Assembly: GCA_022826045.1 (NCBI GenBank)
Contig: JAJDVQ010000037.1
Coordinates: 1 to 64,000, forward strand
Direction: 5' to 3'
From: Acidimicrobiia bacterium
Lineage (GTDB): Bacteria; Actinomycetota; Acidimicrobiia; Acidimicrobiales; Poriferisodalaceae
Length of the DNA: 64,000 nucleotides
How positions within the stretch are numbered: position 1 is the stretch's first letter; each line of letters opens with the position of its first letter. The notes beneath the pieces are model-generated. The model was given only the letters and a program-made list of their open reading frames with translations, did no database searches and was not told the origin of the DNA. Below, piece by piece: positions 19,531 to 32,992 of this stretch. The translations under genes and the position numbers were made by a program.

Positions 19531-20071
19531 TCGCATCTGCGGCAGGCGCTCGAAGGCCTCGGCGCAACCCTCGACGGTGTCGAAACGGCACCGACGGGCG
19601 AACCGACGCGGAGCTCGCTGAGCTGCCCGCGGCTCACACGGCGGTTTCAGAGGGCGAGATGAGCCTTGCGAATGCCGCCAAGCTCGCACAGGCAGCCCGC
19701 ACAAGACGAGCCCCGACGCAGTGCAGGGCGATGCCGATCTGGTCCAGATGGCCCAGATGGCCCAGATGGCCCAGATGGCCAAGACGCTGCCCGAGGACGA
19801 GTTCGCCCAGGCTGCCCAGCGCTGGACGATCCGGCACCAGAGTACCGACGACCTCGCCGCTCAGCATCGCCGCAACCGGCGCAACCGCCATGTGCGGTTC
19901 TGGAACGGCGACGACGGCTCAGTGCAGATGCGCGGTTCGTTCGATGCCGAGATGGGCGCCCGCATCCAGCAGCGCCTGCGGCGCCAAGCCGAGCAGCTGC
20001 GCCAAGCAGACCGACGCCGGGAGCCGCCGCGCGAATGCGAAGCCCACCACATCATCGGTCAAGTCCCGTGA
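19525..20071 (+). pseudogene. Decayed DUF222/HNH (13E12-type) gene
   Basis: The family is recognisable in pieces scattered over three reading frames. An N-terminal segment runs from the ATG at 19525. A second frame carries AELAELPAAHTAVSEGEMSL, followed by an Ala-rich helix (about 19610-19720). A third carries RNRHVRFWNGDDGSVQM, then FDAEMGARIQQRLRRQAEQL and CEAHHI (about 19780-20071). Intact proteins of this family have well over 100 residues between the DUF222 core and the HNH motif; here that stretch is missing and CEAHHI follows almost at once. At least two frameshifts and one deletion make it non-functional. Four perfect 9-bp repeats sit near one frame change. Confidence 0.8.
19745..19780 (+). 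repeat. Four tandem copies of CAGATGGCC
   Basis: A 9-bp unit repeated four times without error, encoding (QMA)4 in the third frame of the broken HNH gene. Slippage here may have contributed to its decay. Confidence 0.85.
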
Positions 20072-25821: not shown

Positions 25822-25885
25822 CGCTCGGCAATCCCGCCGAGTCAGGCACAGCCCGCCTTATGGGGCGTAAGAAATGGAGCTCAAC
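25822..25885 (+). promoter_or_regulatory. Structured leader of metY, possible cis-regulatory RNA
   Basis: The leader has a perfect hairpin CTCGGC-AATCCC-GCCGAG, then GCCC...GGGGC just before the ribosome binding site. The hairpin loop (UCCC) could pair with the GGGG ahead of the start, a compact pseudoknot-like layout. Methionine genes often carry SAM or SAH riboswitches, but no known class was recognised here. Confidence 0.3.
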
Positions 25886-27220
<1,335 letters not shown>

Positions 27221-27237
27221 CGCTTGACATCAACGGC

Positions 27238-27272
27238 CGGCGGGCTGGCGGCTCAAGGTTGCCAGCCCGCCG
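27238..27272 (+). terminator. Strong stem-loop after metY
   Basis: CGGCGGGCTGGC and GCCAGCCCGCCG form a perfect 12-bp stem around an 11-base loop, 17 bases after the metY stop. Confidence 0.75.
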
Positions 27273-27282
27273 CCTGATGCAA

Positions 27283-27376
27283 TTCATCCAGGCATTCGCG
27301 GGGTAGTTCCTGCTGGTTCCTACGGGTTGATTCCTGCGGGAATTCGCAGGGCAATTCCTTCCGTTTCCTGCGGGTT
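27283..27376. repeat. 12-bp periodic repeat array downstream of the DUF4143 ATPase
   Basis: TTC-headed units start at 27283, 27295, 27307, 27317, 27331, 27343, 27355 and 27365, mostly 12 bases apart. Typical units are TTCCTGCGGGAA and TTCGCAGGGCAA. The array fills the space between the metY terminator and the ATPase 3' end. Confidence 0.65.
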
Positions 27377-27438
27377 GCCTCAGCGGACAGCGCTGGCGTC
27401 GCCGCAGCTGCGCGCAGCGAGGCAAGGCGGCCGGTAGC

Positions 27439-28737
27439 TCATCCCCAGAGGCCACATATCGGCACGGCTTCGATGTTCTCGCCGAGTCCGTACCGCTGCG
27501 GTCCCGTGTGAAACACCACACCGCCTGCGAATTCGTCAGGAGCGAGCTGCTCGCGCAGCCATTCGAGGTGCCGAGCGTCGCGCCGAGTGGGAGCACTGCT
27601 GGATTTCACCTCGAAAGCCGCCACGCGGCCATCGAATTCCGCGACGAGATCGACCTCGTGATCGCCTCGCTGCGTGCGCAGGTGATGCAGATGCACCATG
27701 GTCTGCGAGGCCTCGGCTTCCGCCCGCAGCTGGGCTGCCACATAGGTATCGAGCACACGCCCGCGGGCGTCGGCATTGTGCTGAAGGGTCTTGTGGTCGA
27801 TGCGTGCCAGCCAGGCGGCGACACCTGAGTCAGTCAGGTAACGCTTCGGCATCGCGACCAGGCGCTTGAGCCGGTTCGTCCGCCATGCAGGCAGGTCATC
27901 CACCAAGCGCAGCGTTCGCAGCACGTCGTGGTAACCGGCGGCGGTGCGCACGTCGAGTTTCGCTGCGTTCGCAAGTGCGGCGTCCGGCACGACGCCGGCC
28001 GTATGCACTGCTAGCGCCCGCAGATAGCGGGTCAACCGTTCCGGCGTGCGCCGCCGTCCGGGACCGGCCTCCAACTCCCCCAGATCGCGTGAGGCCGTCG
28101 ATTCCACATAAGCCCGCATCCATCGATCACGCCGACGCTCATCGGCTGCCTCGATGGCGTCGGGAAAGCCGCCTGCCAGCGCTGTCTGCAGGTAGTCGAG
28201 AATGCCCGGCGGCTCGGAAGGCAAGGCGAAGCGGCGGTCGCTGTCCCAGCGGTCGAACAGCGTTCGTTCCGTGGCGTCGCCGAATCGCTCGCGGCCCGTG
28301 AGCGGCCACAGCTCAATGTTGAGGAAGCGGCCCGTGCCGGGCCACGATCCGACGATGAGGTCGTTACGGGCCGAGCCCGTGATGATGTATCGACGAGGTC
28401 CGCTCCGATCCTCGTCTACTGCTCTCTTGACTGCACCCAGCACCTCAGGGGCGTGCTGCCATTCATCAAGCAGCAACGGGAACGGCCCGATGGAGATCGC
28501 TGCGTCAGGATCCTCGAGTGCAAGGCCTCGCTGCCCGGGCCGATCGAACCGCAACGCCGCAGCGGCATGGCGAAGCGCCGTCGTCGTCTTGCCGACAGCC
28601 CGCGGCCCGGTGACGAGCAGCGCGGGCCAGTGCATCAGATCATCGGCAAGCAACCGATCCGCGATACGGGGAATGTACTCAGCGATACAGCGAGCATAGC
28701 TGGCAATGGGCCATTTATGCAGTTTTTCGCAGGCCAA
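27439..28737 (-). CDS. AAA-type ATPase with DUF4143 C-terminal domain
   Basis: An approximately 430-residue ATPase of the AAA_14/DUF4143 family. Walker A is GPRAVGKTTTA, preceded by YIPRIADRLL, the usual family N-terminus. Walker B lies in PLLLDEWQHAPE, followed by the sensor stretch YIITGSARNDL. The C-terminal DUF4143 domain carries a nuclease-like motif (HEVDLVAEFDGRVAAFEVKSS, D-x(n)-ExK pattern). Function is not established for the family. The start is uncertain: the longest frame begins at a TTG (28737) inside the upstream repeat array, and no ATG or GTG lies before Walker A in frame. Repeat arrays flank both ends. Confidence 0.8.
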   Translation of the reverse strand: MACEKLHKWPIASYARCIAEYIPRIADRLLADDLMHWPALLVTGPRAVGKTTTALRHAAAALRFDRPGQRGLALEDPDAAISIGPFPLLLDEWQHAPEVLGAVKRAVDEDRSGPRRYIITGSARNDLIVGSWPGTGRFLNIELWPLTGRERFGDATERTLFDRWDSDRRFALPSEPPGILDYLQTALAGGFPDAIEAADERRRDRWMRAYVESTASRDLGELEAGPGRRRTPERLTRYLRALAVHTAGVVPDAALANAAKLDVRTAAGYHDVLRTLRLVDDLPAWRTNRLKRLVAMPKRYLTDSGVAAWLARIDHKTLQHNADARGRVLDTYVAAQLRAEAEASQTMVHLHHLRTQRGDHEVDLVAEFDGRVAAFEVKSSSAPTRRDARHLEWLREQLAPDEFAGGVVFHTGPQRYGLGENIEAVPICGLWG

Positions 28738-28785
28738 TTCATGTGTGTTTACGCAGATCTATTCCTGCTAGATTTCGCACTCATC
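28714..28785. repeat. 12-bp periodic repeat array upstream of the DUF4143 ATPase
   Basis: Six units at an exact 12-base spacing start at 28714, 28726, 28738, 28750, 28762 and 28774. TTCGCAGGCCAA (28726) matches TTCGCAGGGCAA (27343) at 11 of 12 positions, and TTCCTGCTAGAT (28762) resembles TTCCTGCTGG (27307). The first two units overlap the predicted N-terminal codons. Confidence 0.65.
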
Positions 28786-28818
28786 ACCACGCTCTGCGGC
28801 CCACCCAGTCAGCGATGA

Positions 28819-29772
28819 TCAGGCCGGCTGCACAGGCCCGAGCTCGATCAAGTGGACGCCTGCATCCGAGCGTGACCGAGCCCAGTCGAGCACTTGCTGC
28901 TCCTGAGAGAACAGGATGACCTGTCGATCATCGGCAACATCGAGCAGACACTCCAAGATGGCCATTTTGCGGTCGCTGTCTGCATGCACCGTCGGATCGT
29001 CGAGCAGAAGCGGACACCGTTCACGACCTGTTGAGAGCACCTCGGCAAGAACTATTCGCAGTGCCAGATACACCTGCTCCGTCGTGCCGCGCGAAACATC
29101 CCGGGCATCCCGGCGGTTGCCGGACTCAGTCACCAGCCTGACACTGAGATCAGCCGGGTCCACCCGAATGCTGCGGTATCGGCCGTTCGTCACCCGGGAC
29201 ACCAGAGTGCCCACCTCCGCTTCGACTCGTGGAGCGAGCAGCCGGTGTGCGTTGTCGGCTGCTTGCTGCATGAAGCGCGCCGTCGTACTCAAGGTTGCGT
29301 CAAGTCGCCGAACGCGCCCGCGCTCAGCAACTGCCTCGTCAAGCTCCGCTTCGGCCCCCGCAATGTCGACGCTCGCCGGATCAATGCCGTTCAGCTCGCC
29401 CGCAGCAGTGTCCGCGTCGCTGCGAGCCTCCTGCAGGTCTTTGCCCAGTTGCTCCAAGCATCGCTCGATCTCCTGGACATCGCCGACATCATCACCTGAC
29501 CCGCCCAGTGCTTCGAACACCTGCTGCGCTTCCGCCGCGGCATTCCGCGCTTCGCTAGCGCGAATTTTCCACTCGTCAAGGCTCTGACCCTCCAGAGCTT
29601 CCTCGAGCGCCCCCTCGCCGGCACCGCGCTCGGCCTTCGCCCAGTTCCCCAAAGTGCCCGCATGAATCCCAAGATCGCGGGCGACCACAGCGATCGGCTT
29701 GCCCGTCTCTGTCACGATCCTCACCGCACCAGCGCGGAACTCCGGATCGAACCTTCTTCGTGTCTCTGGCAC
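28819..29772 (-). CDS. In-frame chimera: IS3-type OrfA N-terminus joined to SMC-like ATPase C-terminus
   Basis: A 317-residue open frame from a GTG. Residues 1 to about 52 are the helix-turn-helix of an IS3-family OrfA (RRRFDPEFRAGAVRIVTETG, then DLGIHAGTLGNWAKAE). From about residue 56 it becomes a coiled coil and then the C-terminal half of an SMC/Rad50-like ATPase: signature-like RGTTEQVYLALRI, Walker B CPLLLDDPTVHAD, and the region VILFSQEQQ where relatives usually have a His. Walker A and the Q-loop are absent, so no ATPase activity is expected. It probably arose when an insertion sequence landed in, or was deleted into, a larger ATPase gene; whether it is expressed is unknown. Confidence 0.72.
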   Translation of the reverse strand: MPETRRRFDPEFRAGAVRIVTETGKPIAVVARDLGIHAGTLGNWAKAERGAGEGALEEALEGQSLDEWKIRASEARNAAAEAQQVFEALGGSGDDVGDVQEIERCLEQLGKDLQEARSDADTAAGELNGIDPASVDIAGAEAELDEAVAERGRVRRLDATLSTTARFMQQAADNAHRLLAPRVEAEVGTLVSRVTNGRYRSIRVDPADLSVRLVTESGNRRDARDVSRGTTEQVYLALRIVLAEVLSTGRERCPLLLDDPTVHADSDRKMAILECLLDVADDRQVILFSQEQQVLDWARSRSDAGVHLIELGPVQPA

Positions 29773-29876
29773 AGCTCCCCTTCCTCAAAGAGCATGCCTC
29801 CCAGAATCCGGGGGAAGCCCAGAGATCGGAGAAAGCCAAGAATCGCATGAGGCGATGGTATTGAGGGGGTGTCACA
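29607..29876 (-). mobile_element. Truncated IS3-family insertion sequence, left end and orfA remnant
   Basis: The orfA start and about 50 codons remain. Upstream on the minus strand, TGTGACACCCCCTCAATACC at 29857-29876 has the form of an IS3-type terminal inverted repeat. The rest of orfA, all of orfB and the right end are missing; the inner boundary near 29607 is estimated from loss of OrfA similarity. Confidence 0.55.
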
Positions 29877-29925
29877 TGCTTATGAGACAGACATCGATCA
29901 GCTCGCCAGCTGGCGGTCGGTACGG

Positions 29926-31134
29926 CTAGCGGACGGCGTCGGCGTCGCGCAGGGCGGCGATCTCGTCGGGTTCCAGTCCGAACTGGGTCAGGATCTCGTC
30001 GGTGTGCTCGCCCTGCGCGGGGCTCGGCCGCCGGATGTCACCGGGCACCCCGTCGATCTGGGTGGCGTTGCGCACGATGCGGATGTCGCCCATCACCGGG
30101 TGATGCACCGGCGCGGCCATGCCCAGATGCTCAACCTGCGGGTCGGCGAAGGCTTCGGCCACGCTGTTGACGCGCCCGCACGGGATGCCCGCGGCATTCA
30201 GGCGCTCCACCCATTCGTCGCAGCCTGCGGTGGCGAGCCGCTCGCCGATGAGCTTGTTCAGCTCAGTCCGGTTGGCCGAGCGCAGCTTGGTCGATGAGAA
30301 CCGCTCATCGTCGGGCAGATCGGGCCGGCCGATCTCGGCGCAGAAAGCTCGCCACAGCCGCCCGCCGGGCGCCGCGATGTTGATGTAGCCGTCGGCGGCC
30401 TCGTAGGTGCCCATCGGGATCATCGTGGGATGGTCGTTGCCGGCCTGCGGCGGATCCTCCCCCGCCACTGTCCAGCGAGCCGCCTGGAAGTCGAGCATGC
30501 CGATCATCGACTCAAGCAGCGAGGTGTGCACCCAACGACCCACGCCGGTGCGGGATCGCTCGATGAGCGCCACCAGGACACCGATGGCGAGCTGCAGGCC
30601 GGCGGTGACATCGCTGATCGCCACGCCGGCACGCACCGGGCCGTGACCGGGCAGCCCCGTCACTGCCATCATGCCGCCGAGGCCCTGAGCGATTTGATCC
30701 ACGCCGCCGCGGGTCGCGTACGGGCCGTCCTGGCCGAAACCCGAGATCGATCCCATCACCAGCGCTGGATTCACGGCGTGCAGCGTGTCCCAGTCGAAGC
30801 CCAGCCGGTACTTGACGGTCGGTCGCAGGTTCTCGATCAGCACATCGGCTGACTGCACGAGGCGGTGCAGCAGTTCGCGGCCCGAGGGGTGCTTCAGGTC
30901 GATGACCAGCGAGCGCTTGTTGCGATGGATGTTGAGGTGGTCCGGCGATGCCTCCCGGCCTTCCTCGAAGCCGTCGGTGGGGGCGTCCACCCGGATGACG
31001 TCGGCGCCCCAGTCGGCGAGCTGGCGGACAGCAGTAGGCCCTGCACGTGCGATCGTCAGGTCCAGCACCGTGATGCCGGCGAGCGGCAGCGTCTCGCTCG
31101 CCGGATCGTCACCGGTTCCGGTCGGGGTGCTCAC
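29926..31134 (-). CDS. CaiB/BaiF family CoA-transferase
   Basis: A 402-residue family III CoA-transferase, which moves CoA between carboxylic acids in the cytoplasm. Typical segments are GITVLDLTIARAGPTAVRQL, ADVLIENLRP, SISGFGQDGPYATRGGVDQI and the C-terminal NSVAEAFADPQV. The GTG at 31134 lies five bases after the stop of the upstream amidohydrolase pseudogene; upstream in-frame codons to 31209 overlap that gene and look spurious. The donor and acceptor acids cannot be told from sequence. Confidence 0.88.
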   Translation of the reverse strand: MSTPTGTGDDPASETLPLAGITVLDLTIARAGPTAVRQLADWGADVIRVDAPTDGFEEGREASPDHLNIHRNKRSLVIDLKHPSGRELLHRLVQSADVLIENLRPTVKYRLGFDWDTLHAVNPALVMGSISGFGQDGPYATRGGVDQIAQGLGGMMAVTGLPGHGPVRAGVAISDVTAGLQLAIGVLVALIERSRTGVGRWVHTSLLESMIGMLDFQAARWTVAGEDPPQAGNDHPTMIPMGTYEAADGYINIAAPGGRLWRAFCAEIGRPDLPDDERFSSTKLRSANRTELNKLIGERLATAGCDEWVERLNAAGIPCGRVNSVAEAFADPQVEHLGMAAPVHHPVMGDIRIVRNATQIDGVPGDIRRPSPAQGEHTDEILTQFGLEPDEIAALRDADAVR

Positions 31135-31924: not shown

Positions 31925-32992
31925 TCAGCGGCCGCGGCGCTTGCCGACCAGGAAGCCCATCCCCCACGACAGATGCATGACCGCGAAGGCAGCCGCTGCC
32001 CGGAGTCGATCCCCAAGAGCGGGCAAGCCGCGCCCGAGACGCAGCGCTGCCACAGCGCAGGAGCCGATGTATGCAGCCGGCACCAGCCCTCCTCGCAGGC
32101 GCCCGCGAATCAACTCGATCGCTGACAGCACGAGCCCGCACACCAATGCAGGCGCGGCAAGCTGACGAGGTTGCGCTGAACGCGGATGGCGGCCGATCAC
32201 CACGCGCTTCCAGGCCCCGTAGTCGTAGTACTGACGGGCCAGGCCGTCCCAGCTAGATCGCGGCAGGTAGTCGACCACGAGACTGGGATCTAGCCAGACG
32301 AATCGGCCCTGTTCTCGCAGGCGCCAATTCATCTCGTAGTCCTGGTTTCGCTCGAGCGACTCGTCGAAGCCTCCGACAGCCGCGAGTGCCGCTGCGTCGA
32401 AAACCCCGAGATAGACGGTGTCGACGGGACCCTCGTGGCGGCCGCGCCGGAAGTGTGCCGGGCCGCCCCCGAACCCTGACGACATCGCCGCGGCAATCAC
32501 ACGGCTCAGGCCGGATTGCCCCACCGGCCGTTGCACGCCCCCCACGTTGGCTGCCCCGGTGCGGGTCAGCGTGGCCACTGCCTGCTCAACATAGCCGTCC
32601 GGAAGCCGGGACTGCGCATCGACGCGCACGATGACCTCGCCCCGGGCAGCCTGGATCGCGGCGTTGAGACCTGCCGAGGTCGTGCCTGCCGGGTTGGCAA
32701 CAACCCGGGCAGGCCACGAGCAGATCGCCTCGGCTGCCGCCTGCTCGGTTCCGTCGGTGCTGGGTGCGACTGCGATCACCACCTCCAGCGGTCCCGAATA
32801 CACCTGGGCGCCGATGGCTTCGAGACATCCCGGCAGCTCCTGCGCGCAGTTGCGGGCGGGAATCACCACCGTCACATGCGGCCCTCCGACTGTGACACTC
32901 GGCCTATCGGCCGGGACACTCGGCCCATCGGCTGACGCATTCGGCCGCCCGGCTGACGCATCCGGCCCTTCGGCCGTGCCGGCAGTGTTCAC
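31925..32992 (-). CDS. Family 2 glycosyltransferase, membrane-associated
   Basis: A 355-residue GT2 enzyme. The nucleotide-sugar fold starts at HVTVVIPARNCAQELPGCLE. The DxD-like motif is VRVDAQSRLPDGYVE, and acceptor-side elements include GGFDESLERNQDYEMNWRLR. Three C-terminal hydrophobic segments suggest membrane attachment. The first 40 residues contain a heptapeptide tandem repeat rich in Pro, Ala, Ser and Asp. It starts with GTG overlapping the stop of the upstream sugar transferase (GTGA), so the two are co-translated in polysaccharide assembly. Confidence 0.85.
   Translation of the reverse strand: MNTAGTAEGPDASAGRPNASADGPSVPADRPSVTVGGPHVTVVIPARNCAQELPGCLEAIGAQVYSGPLEVVIAVAPSTDGTEQAAAEAICSWPARVVANPAGTTSAGLNAAIQAARGEVIVRVDAQSRLPDGYVEQAVATLTRTGAANVGGVQRPVGQSGLSRVIAAAMSSGFGGGPAHFRRGRHEGPVDTVYLGVFDAAALAAVGGFDESLERNQDYEMNWRLREQGRFVWLDPSLVVDYLPRSSWDGLARQYYDYGAWKRVVIGRHPRSAQPRQLAAPALVCGLVLSAIELIRGRLRGGLVPAAYIGSCAVAALRLGRGLPALGDRLRAAAAFAVMHLSWGMGFLVGKRRGR
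32892..32975 (-). repeat. Four 21-bp tandem repeats in the GT2 gene
   Basis: Units begin at 32892, 32913, 32934 and 32955 (such as GTGACACTCGGCCTATCGGC plus C). They encode seven-residue repeats of the form A-(D/G)-(G/R)-P-x-x-x in the N-terminal linker. Confidence 0.8.

Follow-up and report, generated by a model that had tools for sequence, protein, structure and literature searches.

In a 64-kb stretch of DNA from an Acidimicrobiia bacterium of the Poriferisodalaceae (the window; the bacterium's own 3.64 Mb genome is labelled G000), we analyzed a DUF4143 gene (27439..28686, minus strand) and the two arrays of short direct repeats that lie on either side of it. The two arrays turned out to be two different things: the 5' array represents a family trait, seen as private repeats that occupy the promoter region in roughly half of the DUF4143 genes examined, whereas the 3' array corresponds to no general layout. 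On the basis of sequence comparisons, we propose that the 5' arrays are autoregulatory operators read by the encoded protein, which is predicted to combine an AAA+ ATPase, a winged helix and a PD-(D/E)XK-like domain, and that the 3' array is a left-over second copy; we estimate the probability of this reading at about 0.65.

The 5'-side (right) array (28710..28780, minus strand), a putative autoregulatory operator, consists of 12-bp half units with a 24-bp period and occupies the promoter region of the gene, and the 3'-side (left) array (27283..27385, minus strand) is built of 24-bp units in the same orientation and resembles the gene's own 5' array. By direct reading, the left array has eight TTC-headed units (at 27283, 27295, 27307, 27317, 27331, 27343, 27355 and 27365, with spacing of 12, 12, 10, 14, 12, 12 and 10), and an extra TTC at 27359 is out of phase with them. 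The right array has five 12-phased positions (28726, 28738, 28750, 28762 and 28774), four with TTC and one with TAC. The initial annotation of this locus had counted eight units on the 3' side, in agreement with our reading, and six on the 5' side, where we find the five phased positions; its statement that both arrays share one orientation was confirmed. Its claim that phased TTC arrays are real also held: 12-phased TTC runs with at least four of eight matches occur twice on the plus strand and nowhere on the minus strand of the window, while a mean of 0.005 per strand is expected from 200 first-order Markov versions of the window. The sequences TTCGCAGGGCAA and TTCGCAGGCCAA have one occurrence each in the whole genome. 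The true period of the arrays is 24 bp, i.e. two 12-bp half-units, since the right array matches itself with a score of 14 at lag 24 (at most 6 at lags 22, 23 and 46) and the left arrays of different strains differ in length by 24, 48 or 49 gap columns.

The comparison with related genes was made on 203 distinct DUF4143 genes, obtained from 257 profile hits by the removal of 37 duplicates, 10 genes without P-loop and 7 with a short upstream region. The set includes seven loci from other phyla (L008, L190 and L192-L196) and 38 of the 41 DUF4143 genes of the own genome; ten congeners have 4-37 matches each, and at least one match was found in 113 of 296 genomes of the phylum, own genome included. 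The mean upstream self-match score was 9.31 at lag 23, 6.87 at lag 46 and 6.26 at lag 22, compared with a median of 4.43 over lags 5-80. With the threshold set at a self-match score of at least 10 at lag 22, 23, 24 or 46, and with the same lags shifted by 5 as the control, upstream direct repeats of 22-24 bp (mostly 23) were found for 96 of the 203 genes, versus 7 at the control lags. The same threshold was reached by 9/203 mid-gene sequences (4 at the control lags) and by 2/203 shuffled upstream sequences (3 at the control lags). Under a stricter threshold (a score of at least 12 at lag 23) the count was 57/203 for DUF4143 upstream regions, 0/300 for other open reading frames (ORFs), which remained after removal of 69 of 369 that overlapped DUF4143 5' ends, and 0/473 for tiles of the window. 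Downstream of the DUF4143 genes there was no excess of repeats (12/194 versus 16/194 at the control lags), and 3' arrays were rejected as a general family trait. The initial annotation had seen in the arrays an iterated binding platform for the encoded ATPase and had asked for similar repeats beside related genes. Such repeats are present upstream and show no excess downstream, and the platform survives as phased, gene-private repeats before about half of the genes, without a case at lag 23 among the controls, i.e. as candidate binding sites.

The trait recurs throughout the family. Repeat genes occur in 28 of the 57 clusters formed at 50% identity and make up the majority in 24. When the whole class was later searched at the protein level, blind to repeats, all 11 newly aligned loci reached the threshold; one of these (L313) repeats L006, five further loci (L319-L322 and L331) stand outside the count, and the figure comes with no control-lag count. 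The arrays span -89 to -28 from the start codon (medians for the 30 repeat genes with a placeable start), and in 18 of these 30 genes a TANNNT hexamer is located 5-8 nt before the start. The phased sites are thus found within the gene's own promoter region, which is a part of what characterizes an autoregulatory operator.

The repeat sequences are private to each gene. Among the 23 arrays of the own genome, one of which (L116) looks like a coding-sequence artefact, pair similarity had a median of 6, the same as after shuffling, and 2 of 253 pairs reached 12 or more, while for the 32 gene pairs with protein identity of at least 80% the median array similarity was 36 (minimum 5). All 11 genomes of the genus were scanned with three gene-specific patterns, at a tolerance of three mismatches. 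Of the six sites of the first, five precede the cognate gene and the sixth adjoins a truncated DUF4143 remnant. The second and the third have five sites each, three of which in either case belong to the cognate gene; the other two lie, for the second, immediately 3' of where another DUF4143 gene ends (G018:C14 and G022:C141) and, for the third, at places whose examined flanks gave no DUF4143 profile hit (G018:C12 and G023:C38). Orphan 23-bp arrays, from which the cognate gene is absent, therefore occur at L332 (G018:C14), L335/L337 (G022:C141), L339 (G018:C12) and L341 (G023:C38). On G018:C14, two 23-bp arrays flank only a C-terminal gene remnant. Its intact counterpart on G022:C141, the second bracketed gene that we found, lies between its own array and a 3' array of another gene's type. 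DUF4143 genes also decay in genome G000, where a broken homolog (G000:C7:25253-26292, 63-65% identity) carries in-frame stops; four of the 41 matches in this genome are clustered within ~16 kb on contig C55.

A palindrome upstream is more frequent in genes that have no direct repeats. With a threshold score of at least 11 over the promoter region, palindromes were detected for 21 of the 107 genes without repeats versus 3 of the 96 repeat genes (Fisher p 3e-4), and for 1 of 203 mid-gene controls, so the two elements are nearly exclusive. Both traits follow the protein tree: the repeat state required 30 changes versus at least 60 in 200 shuffles, repeat versus palindrome state 9 changes versus a minimum of 23 in 200 shuffles, and the period (22, 23 or 24) 12 changes versus a minimum of 19 in 200 shuffles. 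As a separate observation, near-perfect palindromes of 35-45 nt overall were noticed at the promoter regions of four DUF4143 genes, L193 (upstream of 3998 on a Moraxella bovis plasmid), L127, L137 and L146, three of which have no direct repeats.

The arrays are spread over diverse hosts, as seen in a sample of 12 plasmid loci from 325 matching records, five of six phage records, and the loci L007, L008 and L190, which overlaps in part (through the seven loci from other phyla) with the set of 203 genes. Upstream arrays of 23 bp were found in the archaeon Methanoplasma (L008), on a plasmid of Mycobacterium riyadhense, on four of five human-gut phage scaffolds and on the viral contig L190, and arrays of 22 bp on alphaproteobacterial plasmids, from Agrobacterium vitis, A. 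tumefaciens, A. pusense and Sphingomonas panacis; the gene of an Ensifer plasmid showed a 44-bp lag. Sphingobium, the fifth gut scaffold and Moraxella bovis had strong palindromes, the last of these together with repeats that pass at lag 23, and neither repeats nor a strong palindrome reached our thresholds in Thermus, Rhizobium, Tabrizicola, Pseudosulfitobacter and L007. In a viral collection, five of five distinct contigs had 23-bp arrays (six loci with one pair alike, the contig of L190 included). The surroundings of the plasmid genes were inspected in 12 annotated regions. By eye, no recurring neighbor was noticed in them that could serve as a conserved partner gene of the toxin-antitoxin type, and an unrelated toxin-antitoxin gene was located nearby in 2 of the 12. 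A recombinase or transposase gene was present in 7 of the 12 (L191, L193-L196, L300 and L302), which hints at mobility, though plasmids are rich in such genes anyway.

The protein itself is predicted to be an ATPase with a putative DNA-binding part and a candidate nuclease domain. The gene was assigned by Pfam, PADLOC, start-codon comparison and an AlphaFold model; its mechanical ORF start is the TTG at 28737, within the 5' array, and if the ATC codon at 28686-28684 is used instead, the product has 415 aa. Pfam found both expected domains in order, AAA_14 (50 bits, cut-off 27) and DUF4143 (111.7 bits, cut-off 28.1), and PADLOC matched residues 18-431 to the model PDLC04790 of PDC-S01 (E 2.4e-99). 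Searches of PHROGs and NCBIfam with this protein gave no match, and the one match to a solved structure by sequence search (E 0.55) was rejected as not relevant. The AlphaFold model, built with 11 sequences (pLDDT 82, pTM 0.82), comprises an AAA+ domain, a middle part (232-301) and a PD-(D/E)XK-like C-terminal domain. The middle part, with helices 232-244, 252-258 and 263-275 and strands 279-282 and 298-301, is probably a winged helix; Foldseek matches of the MarR/ArsR type, obtained with a first, 6-sequence model (pLDDT 54) the AAA part of which was unusable, reached only E ~0.005-0.06. Across the 203 genes, the Walker K is present in all and the Walker-B D and E in 202 each. The nuclease-like ExK motif pointed out in the initial annotation is conserved as well, with E376 in 201/203 and K378 in 193/203, and it is placed at the end of the model's beta-strand 371-377. 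The predicted C-terminal domain is described here as PD-(D/E)XK-like and as a candidate nuclease, an assignment made on ExK with the upstream acidic residue left unscored.

The start of the gene deserves a separate comment. A -10-like hexamer, TATGCT (28693..28698, minus strand), is located 6 nt before the ATC codon, and the same layout of TANNNT followed by 6-7 nt is seen in aligned relatives, which suggests a leaderless transcript. In the 50% identity cluster of the window gene, the aligned start is ATC, ATT or ATA in six of seven genes, all six with the start 6-7 nt after the TANNNT hexamer, and CAC in L172; ATG or GTG is found at the aligned start in several more distant relatives, and likewise in L314 (62% identity). 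In L004 and L005, the sequence from the in-frame stop to the conserved YxxR motif (a motif placeable in only 87 of the 203 genes) offers no ATG, GTG or TTG, which makes it likely that a leaderless transcript is read there from a non-AUG start. For the window gene, such a start is possible.

The history of the 3' array could be followed by comparison with empty sites. As an anchor we used the convergent neighbor of the DUF4143 gene, a Cys/Met-metabolism PLP enzyme gene identified by Pfam (25874..27220, plus strand; the Met gene), which is present in 11/11 genomes of the genus (best copies with 91-100% aa identity). At this locus G000 and G023 carry the DUF4143 gene, which their nearest relatives there, G017 and G019, lack; overall, the gene is absent beside the Met gene in nine congeners, four of which have the left array and five of which do not. 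In a comparison of the window's left array with all 96 arrays of the repeat genes, the two best scores (z 7.35 and 7.19) went to the window gene and its ortholog, ahead of 4.02 for the next array, and none of 1000 shuffles matched it as well as the gene's own array did. By the phased score, the left arrays of all six carrier genomes are closest to the 5' array of the window gene or of its ortholog, in the same orientation, the weakest case being G017 (z 5.12 and 4.16, next 3.84). A profile, R1, was built from the left arrays of G000, G021, G022 and G023 and the right arrays of G000 and G023. At E<1e-5 it matched both sides in G000 and G023 and the left side only in G015, G017, G021 and G022, the matches in G015 and G017 being the only independent ones; the match to the right array of the window (28710-28779, E 2e-17) involves one of the six sources of the profile. 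No other R1 site was found at E<1e-5 in the 11 genomes, with 150 of the 291-409 first-look candidates scored per genome, and since BLAST with the left array in the own genome also found only this locus (next E 0.3), a dispersed repeat family was rejected.

The insert that includes the gene is bounded by a 21-bp duplication of the caiB 3' end, with the left copy at 27382..27402 and the right copy, the true end of the CoA-transferase gene, at 29928..29948 (neither assigned to a strand); 18 of 21 bases are the same in both copies, and the gene-less strain G017 has a single copy. Before the left array begins, G000 and G017 are 99.5% identical, and past the insert 93.2%; for G023 and G019 the two values are 99.0% and 92.8%. 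Because identity falls on one side of the insert only, the presence or absence of the gene was probably changed by exchange of flanking DNA. Between G000 and G023, nucleotide identity is 96.7% for the DUF4143 gene, 95.0% for the Met gene and 92.4% (by blastn) for caiB, and in the intergenic regions it is 81.7% with 60 gap positions on the left and 91.8% with 6 gap positions on the right. None of the 8 inverted pairs in 27250-29980 is a terminal inverted repeat of at least 14 nt joining the ends of the insert, the arrays being direct repeats. The insert also contains a hybrid ORF (28819..29772, minus strand), in which Pfam recognizes an IS3-type HTH_Tnp_1 N-terminus and a DndD/PbeC/SbcC-like ATPase C-terminus; its PADLOC and PHROGs matches are weak, only the end of the ORF is left beside the ortholog in L003, and it looks like a remnant. 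As to a transposase or recombinase in the insert, the one other ORF searched, this hybrid, gave the IS3-type HTH_Tnp_1 fragment only. Elsewhere in the window there are two unrelated tandem repeats, one of 9 bp (5 copies) at 19740-19784 and one of 21 bp (3.6 copies) at 32899-32974.

The initial annotation had regarded the gene as bracketed by two arrays. Such bracketing does not hold as a general layout, in view of the downstream counts given above and of the left array in four of the nine gene-less congeners. We read the left array as a probable relic of the turnover of DUF4143 genes, or else as a landmark of insertion.

In the mechanism that we propose, the DUF4143 protein would bind repeated units of 22-24 bp, each corresponding to about two turns of the helix (two half-units in the window), and would form a cooperative multimer along the promoter, which would hold down the transcription of its own gene. 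With a private repeat for each paralog, the many paralogs of one genome would not cross-regulate. A candidate defence nuclease would in this way be kept at a low level and released once the multimer is broken by its ATP state or by a signal from an invader. As for the 3' array, it would be a second copy of the gene's own operator type, left by the gain and loss of DUF4143 genes; it may still be bound, but the layout of the family does not require it.

Some observations limit the detection of the window arrays, and others weigh against the proposal that the 5' arrays are autoregulatory operators. With respect to detection, neither window array was reported by Tandem Repeats Finder, and another tile of the window also scores 14 at lag 24; it is therefore the TTC phasing and the comparison with relatives, and not the lag score, that mark the locus. 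The looser threshold was reached by 19/300 other ORFs and by 15/473 tiles (the arrays themselves account for three of the latter). In the set of 203 genes, 107 have no repeats at the threshold, and 86 of them have no strong palindrome either; even in the window's own cluster two of seven genes fail, and the five that pass are split between period 24 (three) and period 23 (two). With respect to recognition, array similarity is clearly higher only above ~50% protein identity, and it follows the putative recognition helix (residues 263-282) only weakly, and residues 107-126 just as well. Finally, an activator or another regulator would sit in a similar position, and the existence of orphan arrays without a cognate gene means that an array is not always a promoter element.

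Alternatively, the arrays could mark where a mobile unit lands or ends, the latter a reading that the initial annotation had also offered; the DUF4143 gene would be inserted beside, or leave, sites with cognate arrays by means of the nuclease domain of its product. The close match of the left array to the own or the ortholog's array in all six carrier genomes, its status as the only R1 site apart from the 5' side of the gene, the absence of the gene from the nearest relatives of G000 and G023, the caiB end duplicated on both sides of the insert, and the recombinase or transposase genes in the 7 of 12 plasmid regions would all agree with such a role. However, the ends of the insert are not within the array and are not joined by a terminal inverted repeat, the drop of identity on one side only is what homologous exchange of a flank gives, and the DUF4143 gene has diverged between G000 and G023 to about the same extent as the Met gene. 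Moreover, the family at large has no downstream array, and the second bracketed gene has a 3' array of another gene's type, so we regard a mobile unit as unlikely. The left array could also be a working second operator, with the protein on both arrays forming a loop or tightening repression, as its orientation, its 24-bp period, its similar sequence and its presence in both gene-bearing strains would allow. Its retention in four gene-less strains, the stronger divergence of the left than of the right intergenic region between G000 and G023, and the lack of a 3'-array excess in the family make this quite unlikely.

The position of the arrays alone would suit any regulator, and a host regulator or a nucleoid protein might bind the repeats in place of the DUF4143 product. 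One host factor is, however, unlikely to read all the arrays, because there are ~23 different repeat sequences in one genome (L116 being doubtful) and because the repeats are enriched before one protein family in hosts as different as bacteria, an archaeon and viral contigs; we hold this explanation to be very unlikely. The repeats could finally act as RNA, in the form of a CRISPR-like transcript, a leader or an attenuator, an idea to which the direct repeat units with variable letters in between lend themselves. We give it hardly any credence: Rfam has no match over its gathering scores in 27000-30000, by which a known RNA family was rejected, and the -10-like hexamer lies between array and start in the 18 of 30 placeable cases, so that the arrays are probably not transcribed from it. 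A CRISPR array as such was rejected on the grounds of the degenerate 12-bp units, the lack of a Tandem Repeats Finder report and the lack of an Rfam match; no search for cas genes was made.

Operators that consist of phased direct repeats and serve autoregulation are known, e.g. those of iteron-bound initiators and the direct repeats of response regulators. The DUF4143 arrays are similar to them in that direct repeats about two helical turns apart are located in the promoter region of the presumed binder, and differ in that the presumed binder is an AAA+/winged-helix/nuclease-like protein with its own repeat for each paralog. In structure, the 11-sequence model resembles AAA+ proteins of the RuvB, DnaA and STAND types with winged helices, as Foldseek retrieved RuvB (E 6e-6), 8bob_C, a regulator of the maltose system that we take to be MalT (1e-4), 1l8q, presumably DnaA (3e-4), and the STAND-type defence proteins Avs5 (5e-4) and Avs4 (8e-4). 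However, the query-normalised TM-scores are just 0.17-0.34 (38 rows with E <=0.001), and the likeness therefore concerns domains and not the whole protein.

The family as such is a known candidate for defence. PDC-S01, the model of which the window protein matches over most of its length, ranks fourth in abundance among the defence candidates of prokaryotes according to PMC12988326, which counts 9,986 copies in archaea and 29,494 in bacteria and describes validation as pending for most PDCs; PDC-S01 is abundant in rumen genomes (PMC13356809) and is not mentioned in the available passages of PMC11514479. The available passages of PMC12988326 include none on upstream repeats or self-control, in contrast to the repeats reported here. 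In Thermus thermophilus, the RNA of TT_P0211 (AAA 14, DUF4143) was increased 6.6-fold when plasmid DNA and TtAgo were both present, so at least one DUF4143 member appears to be inducible, and no operator is described in the section of PMC4406477 concerned. Another Thermus DUF4143 gene (L194) has neither repeats nor a strong palindrome. No published account of repeats upstream of DUF4143 genes was found among the matches listed from open-licence PMC full texts.

In a wider and speculative view, which we consider unlikely as a whole, DUF4143/PDC-S01 proteins might form a vast group of AAA+ nuclease switches that are addressed to themselves, each polymerising on a private, iterated 22-24 bp address or on a palindrome that its own gene carries. 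The address would define self, and its loss or titration, for instance by an invader with the same array, would free the nuclease; arrays would outlast genes and mark places of past or future residence. If this were true, the turnover of genes in a genome would be written in it as orphan arrays. In any case, the likely DNA ligand of each DUF4143 protein sits beside its gene in about half of the genes examined, which offers a direct handle on the family, and the many natural pairs of protein and site make binding, specificity and induction testable together. Such arrays, as well as the orphan copies that have lost their gene, may pass for the borders of mobile elements.

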